DNA of 64,000 nucleotides from Desulfurobacterium sp. TC5-1 (lineage in GTDB: Bacteria > Aquificota > Aquificia > Desulfurobacteriales > Desulfurobacteriaceae). The notes under the pieces are model-generated. The model saw only the letters and a list, made by a program, of their open reading frames with translations, was not told the origin of the DNA and searched no databases. Below, one piece after another: positions 4,490-37,382 of this stretch (the first letter of the stretch is position 1; every line of letters begins with the position of its first letter). The position numbers were made by a program, and so were the translations under genes. Location of the stretch: assembly GCF_000421485.1 (NCBI RefSeq), contig NZ_ATXC01000002.1:124001-188000 (forward strand), given 5' to 3'.

Positions 4490-7110
4490 TACAGTTCTCT
4501 CTCAACGGTTTCTATTGTGTAACACTCCACGACATCACCAACCTTAATGTCGTTAAAGTTCTCAAGTCCAAGACCACATTCGTATCCAGCCTGCACTTCC
4601 CTGACGTCATCTTTAAACCTCTTTAAGGATGCAATCTTACCGTCGTAGATGATGACACCGTCTCTCACAAGTCTCACATTGGCGTTTCTTCTTATAACAC
4701 CATCTTTAACGTAGCAACCGGCAACGGTTCCAACTTTCGGCACCTTAAATGTTGCTCTCACTTCAGCACTTCCAAGGTAAACCTCTTTTTCCTCAGGCTG
4801 GAGGAGACCCTGCATGGCTTTTTTGACTTCATCAACAATGTCGTAAATAACACGGTAAGTACGCATATCAACTTTTTCTCTCTCTGCCGCTTTTCTGGCA
4901 GCAGAATCAGGCCTGACGTTAAATCCAACAATAATGGCGTTTGACGCTGCCGCAAGCATCACATCGTTTTCAGTAATGGGACCAACACCTGCGTGTATTA
5001 TCTTAACTTTAACTTCATCTGTTGAAAGTTCTTCAAGGGATTTACGTATAGCCTCTATTGAACCTTGAGCATCGGCCTTAAGAACGATGTTAAGTTCTTT
5101 AACTTCACCTTCCTGTATCTGAGCAAAAAGGTCTTCAAGGGATACTCTCTTTTCCTTCTCAAGAGCAGATTCTCTGGCAAGCTCCTGTCTCTTCTCTGCT
5201 ATCTTCCTTGCCGTCTTTTCATCCTTAACAACATAGAATTTATCACCAGCAAGAGGCACATCTTCAAGGCCGAGAATCTCAACAGCCATTGAAGGTCCTG
5301 CCTCTTTAACAGGCTTTCCTTTATCATCAAACATAGCTCTTATCTTGCCTGCGTAGAGACCTGCAACAATCGGATCACCAACTTTAAGCGTTCCGGACTG
5401 CACCAGCAACGTTGCAACAGGACCTCTCTGTTTATCAAGTTTAGCCTCAAGAACAACGCCACGAGCCTTTTTATTGGGATTAGCTTTAAGTTCCATGAGT
5501 TCAGCCTGAAGTGCAATCATCTCAAGAAGTTCATCAACACCTTCACCGGTTTTTGCTGAAACGGGCACCATAATAGTTGTGCCACCCCAGTCTTCAGGAA
5601 TAAGGCCATGCTGCGTTAACTCCTGCTTAACTCTATCGGGATTTGCACCGGGTTTATCAATCTTGTTAATAGCGACAATTATAGGCACACCAGCAGCCTG
5701 AGCATGGTTTATGGCCTCTATGGTTTGAGGCATAACGCCGTCATCTGCCGCAACGACAAGAACGGCGATATCTGTTACCTGCGCTCCCCTTGCCCTCATT
5801 GCGGTGAAGGCTTCATGTCCCGGCGTGTCAAGGAAGGTAATCCTTTTCTTTCCTTCAGTTGTATCAACCTCTACAATGGAAGCACCTATGTGCTGCGTAA
5901 TTCCGCCGGCTTCACGTTCGGCAACTTTTGTGTTTCTTATGTAGTCAAGGAGTGTCGTTTTTCCGTGGTCAACGTGTCCCATTACGGTTACAACGGGAGG
6001 TCTTGGTTTAAGATCCTCCGGTTTGTCCTCTGTCTCTTCAAGTTCCGCCTCAAGGACAGCCTCTTCCTCTTCGGCACCTTCAAGCTTTGCAACTTTTCCG
6101 TATTTTTCAACAAGCTTACTTACCGTTTCAAAATCTATCGCCTGATTAATGGTCACAAACTTACCAAGAGATATAAGGTCTGCGATAAGCTTATTAGGGT
6201 CTTCGCCCATCTTTTCGGCAAGCTCTCTAACAGAAATAACTTCCGGAACAATAACCGTTTTAGCTTTCTCTTCCTCTTCAATGAGCCTTTGAAGCTGTTC
6301 TTCTTCAGAGAGCTGCTCAAAAGGAACCTCTTCAGGTTTCTCTTCTTTTTTCTTTTTCTTCTTACGCTTTTTAGCCTTTGCCCTGTTTTTCTCTTCTATT
6401 TTACGCATAAGTTCCATAAAGTGCTTCTCACTTTCTCTCTCTTTCTCTTCTCTCTTTTTCTCAGCTATTATCGCTTCTTCCGTCTTGGGTTTCTCTTTCT
6501 CCCTCTGTTCTTTGGTTGAAGCGACCAACTTTTCAAGCTGTTCCCTCGTGATTTTTTCCTCTTTTTTAGAAGCTGGCGCAGGACGCCTTCTGTCTCTCTG
6601 AGGATGCCTTCTGTCTCTCCTCTCTCTGTGACCTTTTTCTCCCTTTTCTTCCTCTCTCCTGCGAGGAGAACGACGCCTTCTGCGCCTTTTCGCAAGCTCT
6701 TCAGGTGAAAGAATCCTTACATCCTTCTTTTCTCTCTGTCTTCTTTCTCTTCTTGTCTCTTTTTCACCTTTTTTCTCTTCCTGTCTCTCAACTTTTTGAG
6801 AAGGAATGTTTGGTTTCAAAGGTTTAACTTCTTTTTCTGAAACAGTCTTCTCGGCAGAGACTTCAGGTTTCTCCACTTTTTCTATTTTTACAGGTTCTTT
6901 TTTCTGTTCAGCAGGTTTTTCTTTTCTTTTAACTGCAGGTTTCTTTTCAGGAGGTTTAATAAACTCCTTAACAAGCATAACCTGTTTTTCGTCAAGCCCT
7001 GACTGAGCATTTTTTACCTGAATATCAAGCTCATTTTTAAGTTTCTCTATCAGCTCTTTTGAACTCATTCCAAGTTCTTTAGCAAGCTGATACACTCTCG
7101 TCTTAGCCAA
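4489..7110 (-). CDS. infB: translation initiation factor IF-2
   Basis: 873-residue GTPase that delivers initiator fMet-tRNA to the 30S subunit. The N-terminal winged-helix IF2_N motif ([20 protein letters not shown]) comes first. A long, very charged Lys/Glu/Arg linker (about 60-290) follows, then a second IF2_N motif ([19 protein letters not shown]). The G domain shows GHVDHGKT (G1), DTPGHEAF (G3) and NKIDKP (G4), followed by domains II-IV. The start is TTG 7110, six bases after GGAGG. Its reverse strand carries a long open frame (5704-6519) that is only a composition shadow. It lies 59 nt downstream of yraN and may share the rplS promoter. Confidence 0.97.
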
Positions 7111-28611: not shown

Positions 28612-28620
28612 AAACTGAAA

Positions 28621-28644
28621 GAGGCGCCGAACGGCGCCTCTCTT
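28621..28644 (+). terminator. Rho-independent terminator at the left edge of the accessory island
   Basis: Perfect 9-bp stem GAGGCGCCG (28621-28629) / CGGCGCCTC (28632-28640), then TCTTAATTATT. Ends the mla-to-HDOD gene run. Confidence 0.85.
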
Positions 28645-28675
28645 AATTATTCAAAGCTATACTGTAGAGGAAAAG

Positions 28676-28906
28676 ATGCTTAAAAAGACAAACTCTGACA
28701 AAAAGAAAGCAAAAAATTTCATGAAATTCTCAAGAGCTTGACCAATTAAAAAGACAAACTCTGACAAAAAGAAAGCCGATGAGTTCGTGAAAAAGGCGGA
28801 TTTAAAGAAGAATACTGGAAAAAGAAAGCGTAGCGAAACTTACATAGCCGTTTACTTTTCTCAAGAAGAGAAAGAAAAAATACTTGAGCTTGCAGGAGAG
28901 AGGTAG
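28676..28906 (+). pseudogene. decayed ribbon-helix-helix-like antitoxin gene with an internal duplication and stop
   Basis: One frame runs from ATG 28676 (RBS AGAGG) to TAG 28904-28906, interrupted by TGA 28739. Before the stop it encodes MLKKTNSDKKKAKNFMKFSRA. After it, the frame restarts with the same KKTNSDKKKA, then a CopG-like segment 'RKRSETYIAVYFSQEEKEKI'. A 31-nt sequence is repeated at 28680-28710 and 28746-28776, exactly 66 nt apart and therefore in frame. The C-terminal part resembles RHH antitoxins or partition proteins. It could still be translated from GTG 28787, but no RBS supports this. Confidence 0.45.
28680..28776 (+). repeat. 31-nt direct repeat, 66-nt period
   Basis: Copies at 28680-28710 and 28746-28776 are identical. 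The period is a multiple of three, so the coding frame is kept, which suggests a local duplication of the 5' end of the antitoxin-like gene followed by a nonsense change. Confidence 0.85.
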
Positions 28907-28917
28907 GAATACCGGAG

Positions 28918-29073
28918 ATGGCACGAAAAGTGGGTAATATAGAGGTAAAAAATTAGATTTACCGCTGACAGAATTTACCGGGATAAATTATTAGACGAAA
29001 ATATTTCTATTAAGCATTTATTGAGTGAGGGGTTTTACCTTTTGGATACAGCTGTTGAGGGAGCAGGAACATA
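28918..29073 (+). pseudogene. broken small ORF, identity unknown
   Basis: ATG 28918 follows CCGGAG and reads MARKVGNIEVKN then stop. One base out of phase the sequence stays open to TAA near 29071 and encodes 'FTADRIYRDKLLDENISIKH' followed by 'LLSEGFYLLDTAVEGAGT'. Joined, the two would be about 50 residues. The order after an antitoxin-like gene suggests a toxin-antitoxin relic, but no family is recognised. It could also be chance reading frame. Confidence 0.25.
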
Positions 29074-29129
29074 ATCACAGTTGACCGTCAGACGGAACTC
29101 TACTGTGTTAACAGAGCAGGGAGCAGAGA

Positions 29130-29432
29130 ATGGAAAGCTTAAAACAGTTTGAACCTGAGAAGGGTGAGATTCACTACGATAAGAGTAAGGATATTCTTTA
29201 TGTATCGTTTTATGATACTGAAAAAGGAAAATGGGTATCACTCACCTTAGAAAATCTCAAGGATAAATCAAAGTATTTTCCTGAAGACGATACTCTTTGG
29301 GTGAATATAGTTGATAAAAGCAGTTGTGAGGGTGAATATTTTAGTGGTGGTTTTGTAGTTGATTTTGATAAAGACGGAGAACCCGTAGGTTTAGAAATTT
29401 TCGGTTGGAAAAAGTTTTTCGATACAAAATAA
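29130..29432 (+). CDS. DUF2283 family small protein
   Basis: 100 residues with the DUF2283 pattern: 'IHYDKSKDILYVSFYDTEKG' near the N-terminus and 'GFVVDFDKDGEPVGLEIF' near residue 75 (D-x-D-x-x-G-x-x-V-G-x-E-(I/L)). RBS GGGAG lies 8 nt before ATG. DUF2283 proteins are tiny beta-rich proteins of unknown function, common beside toxin-antitoxin and defence loci. A second, shorter member follows at once. Confidence 0.7.
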   Translation: MESLKQFEPEKGEIHYDKSKDILYVSFYDTEKGKWVSLTLENLKDKSKYFPEDDTLWVNIVDKSSCEGEYFSGGFVVDFDKDGEPVGLEIFGWKKFFDTK

Positions 29433-29443
29433 AGAAGACGGCA

Positions 29444-29644
29444 ATGCTAAAAATTCCTAAAAGAGCCAATGCAGTTATTCATTATGATGGTGAAGCTGAC
29501 GTTTTATATGTTTCTTTCGGGAAGCCCAAGCCCGCCGAAGGTTTAGACATTGGAGACGGAACTATCCTTAGAATAGACCCTAAAACAAATGAAGTCGCAG
29601 GATTTACCATTCTTGATTTTTCAAGAAGAACAGAAAGCGAATAG
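29444..29644 (+). CDS. second DUF2283 family small protein
   Basis: 66 residues from ATG 29444; the open frame extends upstream into the previous gene (ATG 29405), but the DUF2283 domain begins right after 29444. The pattern is 'VIHYDGEADVLYVSF' and 'ILRIDPKTNEVAGFTIL'. The 12-nt gap from the upstream paralogue suggests one transcript. RBS is weak (GAAGACGG). Confidence 0.65.
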   Translation: MLKIPKRANAVIHYDGEADVLYVSFGKPKPAEGLDIGDGTILRIDPKTNEVAGFTILDFSRRTESE

Positions 29645-29720
29645 ATGTGAGGGGGTTTATCAGGGAGTATCCCCCCAAGTGTAAAAATTTTTAATCTTTA
29701 ACCTAAAGGAGGGTGGACAC

Positions 29721-29891
29721 ATGAAAAAGCAGTATGATCCCAAACTCATATGGGAAGATCTTTAAAAGCTCATCCAGCAGGCCCTTAGAGAAGCCCTTGA
29801 GGCAGAACTTGAAGTTATGTCAATAATTTTGTGGAAGCTATCAGAAATACCTCCTGGAGAACATCTCCCGAATTTCCTTTTTGACTTCTAA
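29721..29891 (+). pseudogene. possible IS256-type transposase N-terminal relic
   Basis: ATG 29721 (RBS GGAGGG) reads MKKQYDPKLIWEDL, TAA, then continues in frame as 'KLIQQALREALEAELE' before drifting to a stop at 29889-29891. The L-I-x-x-A-L-x-E-x-L-E-A-E-L/M motif is the usual N-terminal helix of mutator/IS256 transposases. No catalytic part remains. The identification rests on about 16 residues and is tentative. Confidence 0.35.
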
Positions 29892-30065
29892 AAAGCCGTT
29901 CACTGCCCTGTTAGACCACCCACACCTGTACATTGCTACTATTAAGTAAACGAACTTCAAAAGCAGAACTAACAGACGGTAACGCTTCTATTAGCTTAAC
30001 TTACTTCTCTGTTTTCTTTATAGTCTTTATCTATTTTTAGGTTTCAAAGTTTCCCAAAGGTTGCA

Positions 30066-30230
30066 TCATAAAAATACTTTTATAAAAGCCGTTTTTGTTC
30101 CTCCGTGTTCTTTAAGAAACACTTTTCTTTCTGCTGTCATGATGGATTCCAGTATCTGCTTTACCGCTTCTTTAATGATACCTGGTAAAATTTTCTATAG
30201 TTCCAGTTGGTATTTGTGGGATGTTCCCCA
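30066..30230 (-). mobile_element. IS256-family element relic, 5' end and transposase N-terminus
   Basis: On the minus strand, a 22-nt segment at 30226-30205 matches, with one indel, the segment at 37686-37706. It is followed by a broken frame reading 'ILPGIIKEAVKQILESIMTA' then 'ERKVFLKEHGGTKTAF' and a stop at 30066. LP-x-(I/L)-(I/V)-K-E-A-V-x-Q-I-L-E-x-(I/L)-M-x-A-E-R is the N-terminal signature of IS256-type transposases. Beyond 30066 traces continue out of frame. The rest of the 29892-30352 interval shows no gene; a possible -10 TATAAT is at 30261-30266, upstream of the cas operon. Confidence 0.55.
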
Positions 30231-30352
30231 GGATGTGCTAAAATCGTAATACATAAGGAGTATAATCGTAAATTAAATAAACACCATAATTGTAGAAGAT
30301 GGCTAAAAGAAGATAAAAGATTCTATTGGAGGAGGATTAGGAGGAAGAAAAA

Positions 30353-31534
30353 GTGGGAAGAATCCTCATAGGCTGCCAAGGAACAAGCCAGCGGATGTAT
30401 GAATATAGTTATAATGGACAGAAAGTAAAATCGAAAGCAACATTCATAGCTCTTTCTAAATTTCTAAATGACATAGAAAAGGTAATCCTTTTCGTTACTC
30501 CTCAGTCTCGCAATGTTACCGAAAAATTAATAAAAGGAAAAAACTTCTCTATACCCATCGAATATAGAGATATTTCCAGTACAGATTTTGAAAAAGTTAT
30601 AGAAAGCATGTTTGACTGTCTCGATAGAAATTCCAATGTTGTTATCGATCTAACACAAGGTTATAGACATTTACCTATGTTGCTCCTTATGGCAACATTG
30701 ATAGAGGGCATAGATTTGGAGAAAAGAAGGAACATATTTTTTGCTTTGGAAACGGAAAGCCCTTCTGATGGAAAGTACGGTAAAAGTGAATTTATGGATC
30801 TCACTGTTTATCTTGACATCGCCTACTTTAATCAGATTCTTCATTTCTTCGGAAAATCAGTCAATATGGCTTCTTATCTATCAAAGAAAATTCAAAACAC
30901 GGAACTAAGAAAAGTAAGTAGAGAACTTGCAAAATTCTCCAACTTCTTTTTTGAGAACAATATACCCGAAATTAAAAAGGAAGTATCTGATTTTAAAAGA
31001 AAGTTAGTGAATTTAAGTAAGCACCCATCACTCAAGTTTTCGATAGTTGGGATAAAAAAAGCCATTGATTTTTTAGAAGAAATTGAAAGGATAAATACAT
31101 CTTCTTGCGAAGCTGAAGAACGGTTGTTATTAGCAGGTATATACAATAAAAGAAATTATCAACTAAATGCTATAACCAACTTATCCGAAGCTCTATTATG
31201 CATTATAGAGATGATAGTTAAACCTTCGGCTCTTCGAAATAAAAAGGGGAGTATATATTCTATAAGAAATGCTTATAAACGATTGTTACTAAATGCTAAA
31301 GAGATAGAAAGATATGGAAATATCCTTGTTTCAAGAAGCGAACTTGATGAAAAAAAACTTTCTAAATTAGGAGAACATAAGTTCAAGAAAATTCTCCTTG
31401 AAGTGGATAAAATAAGGAACAATATGGCACATGGATTTGTAAATAAAGACAAACTGAAAAAAGCAGGTAAGCTATCTCAGCGAATAAAAGATTACATAAA
31501 AGAAACTGAAAAATTTCTACATACGTTTGTGTAA
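30353..31534 (+). CDS. csx1: CARF-HEPN ribonuclease, Csx1/TM1812 (Csx2) family
   Basis: 393 residues. The N-terminal CARF ligand-binding domain starts 'RILIGCQGTSQR' and has the family loop DLTQGYRHLP (99-108), which in TM1812/Csx1 proteins contacts cyclic oligoadenylate. A long helical linker leads to a C-terminal HEPN domain with the RNase motif R355-x4-H360 (RNNMAH), intact. On binding cOA made by Cas10 such proteins degrade RNA unspecifically. GTG 30353 has AGGAGG 7 nt upstream. First gene of the type III-A operon. Confidence 0.85.
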   Translation: MGRILIGCQGTSQRMYEYSYNGQKVKSKATFIALSKFLNDIEKVILFVTPQSRNVTEKLIKGKNFSIPIEYRDISSTDFEKVIESMFDCLDRNSNVVIDLTQGYRHLPMLLLMATLIEGIDLEKRRNIFFALETESPSDGKYGKSEFMDLTVYLDIAYFNQILHFFGKSVNMASYLSKKIQNTELRKVSRELAKFSNFFFENNIPEIKKEVSDFKRKLVNLSKHPSLKFSIVGIKKAIDFLEEIERINTSSCEAEERLLLAGIYNKRNYQLNAITNLSEALLCIIEMIVKPSALRNKKGSIYSIRNAYKRLLLNAKEIERYGNILVSRSELDEKKLSKLGEHKFKKILLEVDKIRNNMAHGFVNKDKLKKAGKLSQRIKDYIKETEKFLHTFV

Positions 31535-31546
31535 AGAGAGGTGGTG

Positions 31547-32116
31547 ATGGAAAGCTATCTTGTTAAAGGAGATATAAACGGCATTCAGAATTTTATATAC
31601 AATGTCTATGAAGGAGAAGGAGGCGTTGCAAAGATTTTAAGAGCAAGAAGTTTTTACATTTCTATATTATCGGATGTCATTATTGAATATGTTAAAGACA
31701 TAATGGACAAAGAATGGGAGTGTAAAACAATACTTAACGGCGGTGGTGGATTCATTATGGAAATTACTCCCAAACAAGAAGGAAAAGAAGAAGAGTTTAA
31801 AGAAAGATTAGAAGATGTAAGAAAAAATGTAGAAGAGTTTCTACTGAAAAAACTGTATGGAGAAATTGGAATAACGTTTGGGTATCTAAAAGGAAAGAAT
31901 GAAGAGATCAACTTAAATAAACTTTATGAACGTGTTGATGAGGAAAAAAAAGGAAGTTTAGAAAAGCCCTTACCGATGCTTCAGCGTTTTCAAAGGATAA
32001 AGAGGGCGTTCTTTTCCTTGAAAAACCTGAAAAGAATGGGAAGAACAAAAGGTGTGCTGTCTGCAGAACCTTTTTTGAGAAGGATAGGAACGTCTGCGAA
32101 TTTTGCAGGACATTAA
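31547..32116 (+). CDS. cas10: cas10/csm1, N-terminal part (frame broken)
   Basis: From ATG 31547 (GAGAGGTG upstream; two GTG codons precede it). The start 'SYLVKGDINGIQNFIYNVYE' and 'LRARSFYISILSD' are the first palm domain of Cas10/Csm1, with 'LNGGGGFIMEI' following. The roughly 200-residue HD nuclease domain normally in front is absent; the neighbour upstream is csx1, so it is not merely split off. The Cas10-like reading ends at the A run 31944-31951. Beyond it this frame is nonsense to TGA-free stop TAA 32114, while the correct sequence continues one frame over (see next entry). Confidence 0.85.
   Translation: MESYLVKGDINGIQNFIYNVYEGEGGVAKILRARSFYISILSDVIIEYVKDIMDKEWECKTILNGGGGFIMEITPKQEGKEEEFKERLEDVRKNVEEFLLKKLYGEIGITFGYLKGKNEEINLNKLYERVDEEKKGSLEKPLPMLQRFQRIKRAFFSLKNLKRMGRTKGVLSAEPFLRRIGTSANFAGH
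31944..31951 (+). other. A8 run at the cas10 frame break, possible slippage site
   Basis: Codons GAG GAA AAA AAA GGA switch to AGG AAG TTT in the frame that carries the zinc ribbon and GGDD motif. One extra A (nine instead of eight), or a -1 shift on the run, restores a single 566-residue Cas10. Confidence 0.8.
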
Positions 32117-32244
32117 AAAGACTTGGAACAGTTCTTCCCAAAACCACCGAGAAAAAAATAGAGACATCCGGTAAAACAGACGGCGAAGAAGAAAACGAAA
32201 CATTCGAAATAGGTAAGATAGGAAACACCTGCTTTACACTATCT

Positions 32245-33246
32245 TTGTCCAAAAACAAAGAGAGTGATAAAACACCTCTGATCACCGTCCCTCTGCTGAA
32301 AAGAAATCTGACACATGAAGATATAAATAGATATCAACTATCGGAAGACATAGCAGATTTGAGAAAAGGAATGGTAGCCCCTTTTGAGGTAATATCTCTT
32401 TACTCAAAAGGAGACAATAAGTTAGGATACTTAGTTATGGATGTTGACAATTTAGGATTACTGTTTGGAAAAATTCGCAGTGTGGAACTTCAAGAAAAGA
32501 TAAGTAAAAAGATAGACGAATTTTTTTCAGAAGAAGTTCCAAAGATTGCAAGGAGCAATTTTAAACCTGAAAGTGAGAAAATTGATCTACTTGATGACAC
32601 AGTTATATACATTCTTTATGCTGGAGGGGATGACCTTTTTGCAATAGGTCCGTGGGACAAGCTTTTAGAGTTTGCAGTGAAAGTTAACAAAGAGTTTGAA
32701 AACTTTGCAAAATCCCTTAATGGAGATAGGGAAATTGCACAACTCCTAAAAAAAGAGAATAAAAAAAATGAAATCATCTTCTATCAAAAAGATGAAAATG
32801 GAAAAAGGAAAGGACTTTCCCTTTCTGCAGGATTCGTTACCGTTAAACCCAAGTTTACGGTCAGAATGGCAGCAGAAATGTGTAAAAAAGAAGAAAAGAA
32901 AGCCAAAGAAAAAGGGAAAAATGCCATAGGAGCATTCGGAGAAGTTCTAAGCTGGGAAACAGCTGATTGCCTGATTAACAAGTGTAAAGAGAAGTGGGTA
33001 CCCTATATAGAAGAGGAAAGAATACCAAGAGGATTTTTTTTCAGGCTCTACAATCTCTATGTAGAGATGCTGGCAGGAGAGAAAAAAAATATGATGTTTT
33101 ACCCTTTAATGCACTACACCATTGCCAGGAACATCAAAGATGAAAAAGTAAGAGAGGAAGCTACAGAATTTGTCAACAATGCAGAAAAGTGGAAGATAAA
33201 GTTTCTTTGTAACTATATCTTAACAGCTACGAGGGGGAGAAAATGA
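32245..33246 (+). CDS. cas10: cas10/csm1, C-terminal part with GGDD cyclase palm
   Basis: The frame is open from 31942; the first ATG, used here as a formal start, is 32245 and has no convincing RBS. Before it the frame encodes 'KRCAVCRTFFEKDRNVCEFC', the two-CxxC zinc ribbon of Cas10 (32053-32106). The second palm domain carries 'ILYAGGDDLFAIGPW', with GGDD at 32623-32634 intact, so cyclic-oligoadenylate synthesis from ATP should be possible if the protein is made. Domain 4 follows. Protein from 32245 alone would lack palm 1 and zinc ribbon. The csm2 start overlaps the stop (ATGA). Confidence 0.88.
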   Translation: MSKNKESDKTPLITVPLLKRNLTHEDINRYQLSEDIADLRKGMVAPFEVISLYSKGDNKLGYLVMDVDNLGLLFGKIRSVELQEKISKKIDEFFSEEVPKIARSNFKPESEKIDLLDDTVIYILYAGGDDLFAIGPWDKLLEFAVKVNKEFENFAKSLNGDREIAQLLKKENKKNEIIFYQKDENGKRKGLSLSAGFVTVKPKFTVRMAAEMCKKEEKKAKEKGKNAIGAFGEVLSWETADCLINKCKEKWVPYIEEERIPRGFFFRLYNLYVEMLAGEKKNMMFYPLMHYTIARNIKDEKVREEATEFVNNAEKWKIKFLCNYILTATRGRK

Positions 33247-33653
33247 GTGCCATAGAAGAGTTAACAGGAAGAATAAAAGCAGAAAAGGGAAAGAAGCTAA
33301 CGCAGATTTTAACCGATGAAGAAATACTGAAACCCGGTAAATTTGCGGACAAAATAGCCAGTGACCTGGAACTCAAAAAGAAATTTAAAACTGCTCAACT
33401 TCGTAAAGTCTTTAATAAAGTTAAGGAGATAGAAAGAGCAATAGAAAGAGGAGAAGACTACAAATCTAAAATTCTGGAACTATATCCCAAGCTTGCTTAC
33501 TCAACAGGAAGGGGTTTAATGCCGAAAAATTTCTTTAAGCTACTCACTTTGCTGCTTGAAAAAGCAGAAAAGAATAAAGAAGATGCCAAAATGGTGGTCA
33601 AACTGATAACAGCTATAGTGGCTTATTCTAAACTTCACGGTGACAGGGGGTAG
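33243..33653 (+). CDS. csm2: type III-A effector small subunit Csm2
   Basis: 136 residues, all-helical. The family pattern is visible: 'FKTAQLRKVFNKVKEIE' then 'LYPKLAYSTGRGL' and a final helix 'LITAIVAYSKLHG'. Several copies line the Csm filament against the target RNA. Its presence, not Cmr5, types the system as III-A. Coupled to cas10 by a 4-nt overlap. Confidence 0.9.
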   Translation: MSAIEELTGRIKAEKGKKLTQILTDEEILKPGKFADKIASDLELKKKFKTAQLRKVFNKVKEIERAIERGEDYKSKILELYPKLAYSTGRGLMPKNFFKLLTLLLEKAEKNKEDAKMVVKLITAIVAYSKLHGDRG

Positions 33654-33655
33654 TT

Positions 33656-34432
33656 ATGGAGTTTAAGTTTAGAGGAAATGTTATCATCCATTACAGGCTC
33701 AAGACTTTAACAGGACTTCACATAGGAGGTTCGAAGGACTCTTTCGAAATAGGCGGGGTGGATAATCCCGTAATAAAGCTTGCAAGACTTTCTGACAACT
33801 CAAATGAATACCTTACCATCAAATCCGCTTTCGGTGGAAAGATAAACGTACTTCCTGAACAACCTTACATTCCCGGTTCTTCTTTGAAAGGTAAAATGAG
33901 AAGCCTCTTGGAACTCAAATACAACGATGTGGATTTTGACAGCAGTTCAAAATCTTTTGGAGAACCTGCTTTTGGCAATCCACTGATAAAGAAGCTTTTT
34001 GGAGCTCCAGCGGATAAAGACTTCAACGAACCTGTAAGAATTCGTGTCTTTGACGCTTATCCGGTCGAAAAAGTGGAAACAAAGCTCAAGTTTGAAAACT
34101 CAATCAACAGGATAACCTCAAAAGCCAATCCCCGAAACTTTGAGAGGGTACCAGCGGGAGCAGAATTTGAAGGAAAGATAGTTATTAGAATTTTCTCAGA
34201 AAAGGATAGCGAGCTTCTCCGTTTGCTATACGAAGGTTTCAGCCTTCTTGAGGATGATTATCTCGGAGGAGGAGGTTCAAGAGGCTCAGGCAGAGTGAAG
34301 TTTGAGAAAGTTAAAGTAGTTTTTAGAAGCAAAGAGTACTATGAAAATAGGAAGGAAGAAGTAATTCTTTCAGAAGGAGAAACTGATGCTCTACTAAAAG
34401 CTACAGATGAATTGGCAAAAAATCTGCAGTAA
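33656..34432 (+). CDS. csm3: type III-A backbone ribonuclease Csm3
   Basis: 258-residue RAMP (Cas7 group). Forms the crRNA-bound backbone and cuts target RNA every 6 nt. The catalytic aspartate is present: D36 in IGGVDNPVIK. 'TGLHIGG' near 19-25 and 'PYIPGSSLKGKMRSLLE' are typical, as is the Gly-rich 'GGGGSRGSGRVKF' near the C-terminus. RNA cleavage by the complex should therefore be intact. Two-base gap after csm2. Confidence 0.93.
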   Translation: MEFKFRGNVIIHYRLKTLTGLHIGGSKDSFEIGGVDNPVIKLARLSDNSNEYLTIKSAFGGKINVLPEQPYIPGSSLKGKMRSLLELKYNDVDFDSSSKSFGEPAFGNPLIKKLFGAPADKDFNEPVRIRVFDAYPVEKVETKLKFENSINRITSKANPRNFERVPAGAEFEGKIVIRIFSEKDSELLRLLYEGFSLLEDDYLGGGGSRGSGRVKFEKVKVVFRSKEYYENRKEEVILSEGETDALLKATDELAKNLQ

Positions 34433-34451
34433 GTTAAGCGGAGACTGAAAG

Positions 34452-35441
34452 ATGGAGAACCTTAAAGTTTTCAGGATTACTTTAAAACCCCTGAGTTATT
34501 TCTCATCAGAACTTTCCTCTCACACGATCTTTGGAGCTCTCTGCTGGGCGGTAAGATACCTCTACGGAGAGAAAAGAGTTTCAGAACTGATCAAACTGGT
34601 AAAAGAGGGGGAACTTTTAATCTCTTCTGTTATGCCGGTAGTCGATGGGAAACTCTATGTATTCAAGCCGATACTTAAACCTGAACGTATTGGTGCGGAA
34701 GACCTCAAATTTCTAAGCAGCAATGAAGAAAACAGAGAGAGTGAATTCAGGAACTTCATCAAGAAATTCAAAAAGCTCTCTTTTGTCCCTCTCGATGTTC
34801 TGATGAAAGTGTCAGAAGGAGAAATAAAAAACGATAAGGATCTTATGCTAACATTGGGAAAGGAACCTGGAGAAGTTTTTCCATTTACCTCTTTAGCTCT
34901 ACCCCATGCAAAACTGAACAGAATAACAAACAGTACATCGGAAGGTGGTGAATTTTACTTTGAAGAATCCCTCTTTTTCAGATCTGATGTTTACTTTTTG
35001 GTTGCTGTCAAAGATGAAAATATTACCGACGAGGTGTTAATACCACCCTTGAAACTTTTGCAGGACTGGGGAATTGGAGGAAACAGAAGCGTAGGATTCG
35101 GAAGTTTTTCTTTCAAAATAGAGAGAGAAAAGAGGTTTGAGAAACTCATCAACAGGAATGGAAAAGACTTCATAACTCTTTCGCCAGTTGTTGCTACAGA
35201 CAGAATAGATTATGAAAAGAGCTTTTACGATATAAAAACCTATAAAGGAGCAGTGGAGAGCGGATGCCAGAATTTCCTCTGGAAACCGAAAATTTTCTAT
35301 CTGAAAGCCGGAAGTTTAATAAAACTAAAAGAGGATAGTAAATTTGCAGGAGCTTTAATAAAACCGTTTGAAGGGATAGAACTCTACCATTACGGTTTTG
35401 AATTTCCCATCTACATTAAGGAGAGTGGAGATGAAAGTTAG
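34452..35441 (+). CDS. csm4: type III-A subunit Csm4
   Basis: 329-residue RAMP (Cas5 group) that holds the crRNA 5' tag and contacts Cas10. The opening 'LKPLSYFSSELSSHTIFGAL' with 'CWAVRYLYG' is the usual Csm4 N-terminus, and 'WGIGGNRSVGFGSF' is the Gly-rich RAMP loop. Order between csm3 and csm5 agrees. Start ATG follows GAGACTGAAAG, a modest RBS. Confidence 0.9.
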   Translation: MENLKVFRITLKPLSYFSSELSSHTIFGALCWAVRYLYGEKRVSELIKLVKEGELLISSVMPVVDGKLYVFKPILKPERIGAEDLKFLSSNEENRESEFRNFIKKFKKLSFVPLDVLMKVSEGEIKNDKDLMLTLGKEPGEVFPFTSLALPHAKLNRITNSTSEGGEFYFEESLFFRSDVYFLVAVKDENITDEVLIPPLKLLQDWGIGGNRSVGFGSFSFKIEREKRFEKLINRNGKDFITLSPVVATDRIDYEKSFYDIKTYKGAVESGCQNFLWKPKIFYLKAGSLIKLKEDSKFAGALIKPFEGIELYHYGFEFPIYIKESGDES

Positions 35442-36594
35442 ACTGAAAGTGATCACTCCTATTCACATAGGAAATGGAGAAAAGTATTCTGCATTTGAAT
35501 ACATTCTTGAAAATGGACTGCTGAAAAAGTACAGCATTGAGAAAATAATCAGCAAAGCGGAAGAGAGAAAGCTTTTAGAATCGTTAGCTTCTTATTTCAA
35601 GAGAGAAACTTTACCAAATAAAAGACTCTACAGTTTAAATGAAATTTGCAATACAAATCCATCTCTCAGGAAAATTATTCTCGAGCAGGAACCTGAGTAC
35701 ATAATCAGGGCAGAAATTGGAAAAGAAGAGGAGGTGGAAGAATTTATAAAAAGCAGTGGAAAAATCTACATTCCGGGTAGTGAAATTAAGGGAAGTATAA
35801 GGAGAGCTCTCCTTTTTCACGTTTTAAAAGAAGACAAAAAAGTTTTTGAAAAACTCCTAAACATGCTAAAAGAAGCAAAGGAAAAGAAAAACTTTAAAAC
35901 AGTCAGTAAACGTATAGAGAATATAGTTTTTAGAGGAAGGGAAGAAGATGTACAGTATGATATCATGCAGTATGATATCATGAAGCTCCTGAGAGTAAGT
36001 GATACAAATCTTCTTAAGCCTTCTGAGAAAAATCTAAAAGTGAAAAAAATTGGTCTTTTTTACATAACGTCCCAGAAACGAAAAGAGTTTCCTTCGGAAG
36101 TTGTCTTAGCGGGAACACAGTTTGAATTTAATATAAATTTATCTCTCAGCGCAAAGAGGCTCGCTGATGTGCTTGATTGTCATCATATCATCAAGTCTCT
36201 CTTTTTAGATTCTAATAACGAAGACACAACGATAGAAGGAATCATCAAGATCTGGAAAGAAGCTGAGAAAGAGTGCATCAAACTTGATCCTTACCTTGTT
36301 CCAGTTTCTGATAACGAAATCCTCTCCTCAACAAAAAATAAGAAGAGGGCTAACCAGATATTGAGGTTCATCAACCAGCTAAAAGAAGGAAAGCGGTCGG
36401 TAGTAAGAATCGGTAAACATGAAGGTTATCTTTTCACAACGGTAATGGCCTTATTGAAAGAGAAGAATGAGAAAACCTTTGAAAAAGTGTTCAAACTCTC
36501 CGCTCCGAGAGTATCAGGAATTCCCAACAAGACAAGAAAACTTACAATGAAGGAGAAACTTCCCCTCGGATTTTGTAGTGTGGAGAGTATTTAA
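35431..36594 (+). CDS. csm5: type III-A subunit Csm5
   Basis: 387 residues from ATG 35431, chosen because AGGAGAGTGGAG precedes it and 'MKVRLKVITPIHIGNGEKY' is the exact RAMP start; an ATG 11 codons earlier lies in csm4. 'IYIPGSEIKGSIRRALL' is the conserved crRNA-contact segment. Csm5 caps the crRNA 3' end and recruits trimming nucleases. It overlaps csm4 by 11 nt and cas6 by one (TAATG). A short in-frame tandem repeat gives QYDIMQYDIM near residue 175. Confidence 0.9.
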   Translation: MKVRLKVITPIHIGNGEKYSAFEYILENGLLKKYSIEKIISKAEERKLLESLASYFKRETLPNKRLYSLNEICNTNPSLRKIILEQEPEYIIRAEIGKEEEVEEFIKSSGKIYIPGSEIKGSIRRALLFHVLKEDKKVFEKLLNMLKEAKEKKNFKTVSKRIENIVFRGREEDVQYDIMQYDIMKLLRVSDTNLLKPSEKNLKVKKIGLFYITSQKRKEFPSEVVLAGTQFEFNINLSLSAKRLADVLDCHHIIKSLFLDSNNEDTTIEGIIKIWKEAEKECIKLDPYLVPVSDNEILSSTKNKKRANQILRFINQLKEGKRSVVRIGKHEGYLFTTVMALLKEKNEKTFEKVFKLSAPRVSGIPNKTRKLTMKEKLPLGFCSVESI

Positions 36595-37382
36595 TGCCTG
36601 TAAAACTCGGTTTAATTCTTCATCTTGAAAAGTCCATTAAGATAAAGGAAGTATATCCTAAAAGAGTGCATGCTCTTTTTTTCTCTATTCTCCCTGAAGA
36701 TATATCAGAAAAAATTCACTCTCAAAAAAGTACGAAACCCTTTACCATCTGCTTTGAAAAGTTTTTTAGAGAGAATGGAGAAAATGAAGTTTCAAAGTTA
36801 AAACTGAAGGTAACCCTTCTGGATGACTTTCTATTTCCGTATTTTTCTCAGGGAGTCATCCTCGGAGAGAAAAAACTATACATGGGCTCTACTGCAATAA
36901 GAAAAAAAGAAATACTCTCCATCGAACACAAAAGTTATGAGGATCTGATTGGAAATACTGAAGAGAACAGGGATTTCCTATTTTACTTCAAAACCCCCAC
37001 CACATTCAAAAAAGGAAGTTCTGACTATCCCCTTCCCGAACCGGTTTTAATATTCAAAAATCTTTTGAAGAAGTGGAATAAATTCTCCCCTTTCAAAATC
37101 GAAATATCTACTAAAGAGCTATTAAAACTTCTTCAAATCGGAGGAGTCTGGATAAAAACCAGAAAATTTTCCCTTTTACCTAATGGAAAAACAATCGGAT
37201 TTTACGGTAGAGTTTTCATAAATGTAAGAACAGAAAAAAAAGAAACCTTGCGTAAACTAAATATTCTCTTTAATTTTTCCTCCTTTTCAGGAATCGGAAG
37301 AAAAACAACAATGGGTATGGGAAACGTAGAACTACCCTCTTCTACCTTTCAGGACACTAACGGCAAAAGGTTGGAGGATTAG
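36594..37382 (+). CDS. cas6: CRISPR repeat endoribonuclease Cas6
   Basis: 262 residues. 'RVHALFFSIL' places a likely catalytic His near 26. 'YFKTPTTFKK', 'YPLPEPVLIFKNLLKKWN' and the C-terminal Gly-rich loop 'SGIGRKTTMGMGNVEL' are standard Cas6. It cuts pre-crRNA within repeats, which must come from an array elsewhere because none is clear in this window. Last gene of the operon. Confidence 0.92.
   Translation: MPVKLGLILHLEKSIKIKEVYPKRVHALFFSILPEDISEKIHSQKSTKPFTICFEKFFRENGENEVSKLKLKVTLLDDFLFPYFSQGVILGEKKLYMGSTAIRKKEILSIEHKSYEDLIGNTEENRDFLFYFKTPTTFKKGSSDYPLPEPVLIFKNLLKKWNKFSPFKIEISTKELLKLLQIGGVWIKTRKFSLLPNGKTIGFYGRVFINVRTEKKETLRKLNILFNFSSFSGIGRKTTMGMGNVELPSSTFQDTNGKRLED

Follow-up and report, generated by a model that had tools for sequence, protein, structure and literature searches.

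A type III-A cas10 gene with a frame break at a run of eight adenines in Desulfurobacterium sp. TC5-1

A type III-A CRISPR operon of Desulfurobacterium sp. TC5-1 carries a cas10 gene which, judged by its sequence, is a Cas10/Csm1 gene by descent, frame-broken in the DNA at a run of eight adenines (A8). The probable cause, to which we assign a probability of about 0.68, is a recent one-base contraction of the run from nine adenines (A9) to eight, an ordinary mutation that would inactivate or strongly lower Cas10. The remainder of the gene and of its operon is intact, conservation in relatives is seen for neither run nor break, and runs of nine adenines are rare in the genes of this organism.

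The operon and the break in cas10

The window, that is the whole 64,000-nucleotide stretch analysed, lies in a genome of 1.65 Mb in four contigs (G000) in which this cas10 locus, from G000:C2:155943, is present in a single copy. The operon occupies window positions 30353-37382 and comprises a gene for a Csx1-like CARF-HEPN nuclease followed by cas10, csm2, csm3, csm4, csm5 and cas6:

30353..31534, + strand, Csx1-like CARF-HEPN nuclease gene, intact (PADLOC CARF_HEPN 1.4e-35, Csx1/Csm6 1e-28)
31350-31357, + strand, in-frame A8 within the Csx1-like gene
31541..32116, + strand, first part of cas10: palm1 in frame 0, then an off-frame tail past the run to a stop at 32114-32116 (TIGR02578, Csm1_B)
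31944..31951, + strand, A8 run at the cas10 frame break; the conserved E-K-K-R-K-F is in frame only with A9
31951..33246, + strand, second part of cas10, in the -1 frame: zinc ribbon, palm2 with GGDD, C-terminal domain (TIGR02578, Cas10-Cmr2_palm2)
33243..33246, + strand, ATGA overlap between the stop of cas10 and the start of csm2
33243..33653, + strand, csm2, intact (Csm2_III-A 7.2e-18)
33656..34432, + strand, csm3, intact (TIGR02582 3.5e-54)
34452..35441, + strand, csm4, intact (TIGR01903 1.1e-48)
35398..36594, + strand, csm5, intact (TIGR01899 4.8e-32)
36594..37382, + strand, cas6, intact (CRISPR_Cas6 5.6e-20)
37234-37241, + strand, in-frame A8 within cas6

The frame-0 part of cas10 runs from a GTG at 31541 or an ATG at 31547 to the stop at 32116. 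It matches positions 230-360 of the NCBIfam Csm1 model TIGR02578 (1.4e-24, 86.8 bits) and Csm1 domain B (Csm1_B, 7.7e-12). The second part, in the -1 frame, takes up the same model at positions 363-598 (2.1e-56, 192.1 bits against a cutoff of 170) and matches Cas10-Cmr2_palm2 (1.8e-28). The first-pass annotation had placed palm1 in one frame and the zinc ribbon and GGDD palm in another, with the split exactly at the A8 run, and this is what is found: two stops in the -1 frame at 31934-31939 lie just 5' of the run and frame-0 homology ends at the run itself, so that the break is pinned to about a dozen bases and is not a matter of chance. Its estimate that a single extra A restores an ORF of about 566 codons is likewise correct, since the addition of one A yields a single ORF of 566 amino acids starting at ATG 31547. 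The single ORF of a Cas10/Csm1 gene is thus interrupted at 31944-31951. The GGDD cyclase motif is found at residues 360-363, and the paired CxxC zinc ribbon (C170, C173, C184, C187) is invariant across this Cas10 and its two nearest relatives. The broken site sits inside K-K-R-K-F, a motif recognisable in many Cas10 relatives. The ortholog from a genome of the same genus (G003, 45% identity) encodes this motif in one frame, as GCT AAA AAA AGG AAA TTT; read in frame, the DNA of the present gene would be GAA AAA AAA AGG, that is, A9.

No CRISPR array was found adjoining the operon; in the part of the genome read, arrays occur at C1:585 kb, 643-647 kb, 772 kb and 863 kb. The GC content of window positions 30353-37382 is 0.359, against a comparison value of 0.397. 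The 1.7 kb upstream of the operon (window 28620-30340) has a decayed appearance, with a 47-nt repeat in two copies 66 nt apart (28680 and 28746) and a DUF2283 gene (29130-29432) followed by a second, similar reading frame.

Integrity of the gene and comparison with relatives

No sign of old decay is seen in cas10, whether from the conserved columns of the family, from identity to G003 or from the open frames of the operon. Of the 44 columns that at least 80% of Cas10 relatives conserve, 40 are kept by the gene, which ranks 34 among 92 relatives. Its two halves are 43% and 39% identical to G003, as compared with 43% for csm2, 38% for csm4 and 42% for cas6, and the frames of csx1, csm2-csm5 and cas6 are all open. 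The earlier assertion that there is no other damage, and the argument drawn from it against long-standing decay, are therefore upheld. The protein is without the N-terminal HD nuclease domain, positions 1-229 of the Csm1 model being unmatched. This domain is usual but not universal in Cas10/Csm1. It is missing too from the two nearest orthologs, those of G003 and of G018, a genome of the same family, so that its lack is ancestral and not a form of damage. The HD-less orthologs are alike in palm1, zinc ribbon, GGDD palm2, csm2-csm5 and cas6. They differ in that the frame is broken here, and in the accessory gene, which is Csx1-like here and SAVED-Lon in G003.

The comparison drew on 94 Cas10 sequences from two collections, of which one on a gapped contig and one fragmentary MAG gene were set aside. 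All 92 usable relatives read through the site in one frame, none sharing the break, and a single relative has A8 there, in frame. This failure of run and break to persist counts against a programmed element, which would be expected to be kept. The nearest genome compared stands at about 45% protein identity; scans of genome contigs for closer relatives returned only distant ones, and there was no plasmid match. An apparent second broken cas10, in G038 (L029), proved to be an assembly gap of N with no frameshift, and the cas10 of a Caloramator MAG (L098) was left out on account of several frame changes.

In the orthologous operon of G003, csm5 is broken beside an A7 run that is one A short (G003:C1 ~293,470-293,510; L127), which makes it another type III-A gene with this kind of loss or sequencing fault. 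Two more G003 genes are frame-broken relative to G000 (G003:C1:3389 and G003:C1:305,812), one at an A7 that is one A short and one away from any run, and G003 may therefore contain indel errors.

Homopolymer runs in the genome and in dnaX

About 1.25 Mb of the genome (75%) was sampled, read as stretches. Within matches to G003 proteins, 24 A8 and 8 T8 runs are bridged by homology and all are in frame; when runs are judged by coding potential, 48 A8 and 8 T8 are unbroken. Against 420 G003 ORFs the only real frame break is that of cas10, and no other gene in the sampled 75% is broken at an A or T run. Together the bridged runs and the solitary break indicate that the assembly is sound at eight bases, and a general homopolymer error signature is absent at A7, A8 and T8. 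A scan for broken genes by composition only proved insensitive, missing cas10 itself, and homology was used in its place. Nine other apparent frame switches at A7 or A8 were discarded, eight because they fall where neighbouring or overlapping genes end and the ninth (C1:751116) because an open frame overlaps an ordinary ORF there; two more apparent breaks relative to G003 were shadows on the antisense strand.

The frequency of such runs in genes was compared with a synonymous-codon shuffle over 1054 genes (75% of the genome). Avoidance of poly(A) grows with run length: A7 stands at 0.83 of expectation, A8 at 0.59 (86 seen, 146 expected) and A9 at 0.06 (3 seen, 54 expected), whilst no run of ten or more was met in these genes. 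T8 is also strongly avoided (12 against 65). Glu-Lys-Lys before a codon starting with A is written as A9 in only 1 of 98 cases. The in-frame form of the broken tract would have been one of very few coding A9 runs in the genome, and an A9 kept in frame in cas10 would be unstable or bring a cost.

No other 7-kb stretch of the sampled genome is as dense in A8/T8 tracts as the operon (6, where 0.7 would be expected), and cas10, with 4, carries more of them than any other sampled gene. Selected enrichment in cas10 was rejected on a shuffle of its own codons (2.9 expected, P = 0.31). In the 60 most tract-prone sampled genes, by contrast, tracts are depleted about fourfold (27 against 105), and cas10 thus looks unpurged of tracts and not enriched in them. 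It may be a Lys-rich gene of foreign origin, or one under weak selection, that carries hot spots by chance.

Among the few coding A9 runs of this genome is one in dnaX (G000:C1:605998-606006; L124, dnaX ORF 4844-6310). In Thermus thermophilus an A9 in dnaX gives rise to the short subunit through slippage of RNA polymerase (PMC1088944). In each of 18 full-length dnaX genes compared from the family of the present organism (L189-L206), a poly(A) run lies 0.77-0.80 of the way along the ORF; it is exactly A9 in 17 and A8 in one, and one or two added As lead, in both other frames, to a stop within 4-17 codons; the codon phase of the run differs between some genera. By analogy with Thermus, the family A9 is likely to be a programmed transcriptional-slippage site, which suggests that the RNA polymerase of Desulfurobacteriaceae slips on A9. 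No report of dnaX slippage in this family was found in the literature searched, and the dnaX of A. aeolicus reportedly yields tau alone on expression in E. coli (PMC3290774). The run lengths prone to slippage are nine in many bacteria, with use of A8 argued for a few (PMC1088944, PMC3711429), and insertions climb exponentially with run length (PMC5574713).

Origin and consequences of the break

The first-pass annotation had left the choice between mutation, sequencing error and slippage. A mutation is favoured here, in the form of the loss of one A from a nine-A run coding Glu-Lys-Lys-Arg (GAA AAA AAA AGG). The continuous family match across the break, the unbroken nearest relatives, the lack of decay elsewhere in cas10, the rarity of A9 in genes and the solitary status of the break among 420 ORFs speak for a probable recent contraction, albeit one read from a single assembly. 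Ordinary translation would then give palm1 and about 55 wrong residues before the stop at 32116, and no Cas10 with zinc ribbon and GGDD palm. A complex without such a Cas10 would be predicted to make no cyclic oligoadenylate, or little, and to fail to activate the Csx1-like nuclease encoded alongside. The early stop may also lower the translation of csm2, through the ATGA overlap at 33243-33246; csm2 has its own ribosome-binding site. Loss of this Cas10 would probably be buffered by a second type III-A locus, checked for cas10 and csm2, which has an intact HD-bearing Cas10 of 823 amino acids beside a SAVED-Lon gene and should make the loss at the first locus tolerable. The allele would be null or, should RNA polymerase insert an extra A into a minority of transcripts, strongly reduced. 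Since the dnaX genes of the family hint at a polymerase that slips on A9, some full-length Cas10 may be made, and to call the allele null is maybe too strong.

Losses of this kind are known from the laboratory. Among Staphylococcus epidermidis escapers of type III-A immunity, 14 of 111 genotyped had single-adenine deletions; five isolates of strain RP62a carried the same deletion in cas10, dA979, and others were found in csm2, csm4, csm6 and cas6 (PMC3784566). There a type III-A operon lost one A and with it the frame of cas10 or of another gene of the operon, as is probable here for cas10. In S. epidermidis, however, immunity was lost in laboratory escapers of plasmid targeting, whereas the present allele, of predicted effect, is a natural one from a thermophile. 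If a mutation it is, it would parallel in nature the deletions that cost a laboratory strain its type III-A immunity, and would point to the poly(A) tracts of Lys-rich cas genes as a way in which such immunity is lost.

A chromosome that really has A9 and an intact cas10, the A8 being an error of sequencing or assembly (or one part of a mixed A8 and A9 culture), is less likely than a recent mutation and has a small though real chance of being correct. The in-frame run would be nine bases, where base callers are at their least reliable, and with 8 A9 runs in 1.25 Mb there are too few for the assembly to be judged at that length. Cas10 is otherwise pristine, and homology-supported singleton frameshifts are expected by the authors of GeneTack to be mainly errors (PMC3711429). 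Against this, all 32 bridged A8/T8 runs are in frame, setting an upper bound of about 9% per run by the rule of three; this assembly gives the A9 of dnaX correctly, and no further gene among the 420 ORFs is broken. Slippage survives from the earlier choice as a possible leak, raised from an idle to a plausible idea by the resemblance of the family dnaX to that of Thermus. A low level of full-length Cas10 made in this way is possible, and would not thereby be selected; were the polymerase to slip on A9, mixed transcripts would already have come from cas10 in its A9 form. That the dose of Cas10 is set by polymerase slippage, the A8 gene giving a small, tolerable full-length fraction, is unlikely. 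Somewhat less likely still is slippage or a phase switch maintained by selection, in which A8/A9 variation in RNA or DNA sets the dose: the kept A9 and flanking stops of dnaX, the abundance of tracts in cas10 and its operon and the intactness of the gene would suit it, but neither run nor break is kept in 92 relatives and the tract number matches what the codons of the gene predict. Moreover A8 is so frequent in ordinary genes (86-90 cases) that it is unlikely to be very slippery. Of the earlier proposals, then, slippage as a mechanism is reasonable given the conserved dnaX A9, whilst its selected use as dose control or phase-variable switch finds no support.

Recoding by the ribosome is highly improbable. 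Programmed -1 frameshifting on A_AAA_AAA could yield full-length Cas10, as GAA AAA AAA GGA holds a slippery heptamer in the correct phase and the frame needed is -1. The heptamer is nevertheless commonplace in frame (271 occurrences in 1197 predicted genes), unconserved at this site in 92 relatives and, in E. coli, much less shifty than A_AAA_AAG (PMC5009743). Downstream RNA structure is insignificant (z -1.2 and -0.6), and the sole SD-like GAGG abuts the run instead of lying 10-14 nt upstream. With a heptamer that is not special and no structure, this mechanism was rejected. That the two parts are made separately and then assemble is scarcely credible. Internal starts are present in the second part, a TTG at 32245 and, where palm2 begins, an ATG at 32371, but they are without a good ribosome-binding site, a restart there would drop the zinc ribbon, the off-frame tail of the first part has no homolog and no relative is split at this site.

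Slippage in cas10 may be set beside known cases. Like the pseudo-pseudogenes of Baranov et al. 2005 (PMC1088944) and the poly(A) frameshifts of Blochmannia (PMC3017870), cas10 is an otherwise intact gene with a single poly(A) indel that slippage could repair in mRNA; those genes mostly have runs of nine or more, some kept between species, in contrast to the unconserved A8 of cas10, which is known from DNA. With Thermus dnaX it shares a poly(A) run in the gene of a thermophile, matched by an A9 in the family's own dnaX. The Thermus run is in frame and slippage truncates, whereas that of cas10 is out of frame and unconserved, and slippage would have to restore. No CRISPR effector dosed by transcriptional slippage was found in the literature searched; should the run slip in transcription, this would be, to our knowledge, the first such case, and the conserved dnaX A9 offers a ready internal control in the same family.

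The accessory gene before the HD-less cas10 is a Csx1-like CARF-HEPN gene in the window (30353-31534) and a CalpL-like SAVED-Lon gene in G003 (L010:70-1443). The genome of the window has its own SAVED-Lon gene beside its other Cas10 (L122:14162-19998), and the genes preceding it might be, at a guess in both cases, CalpT and a sigma-like CalpS.
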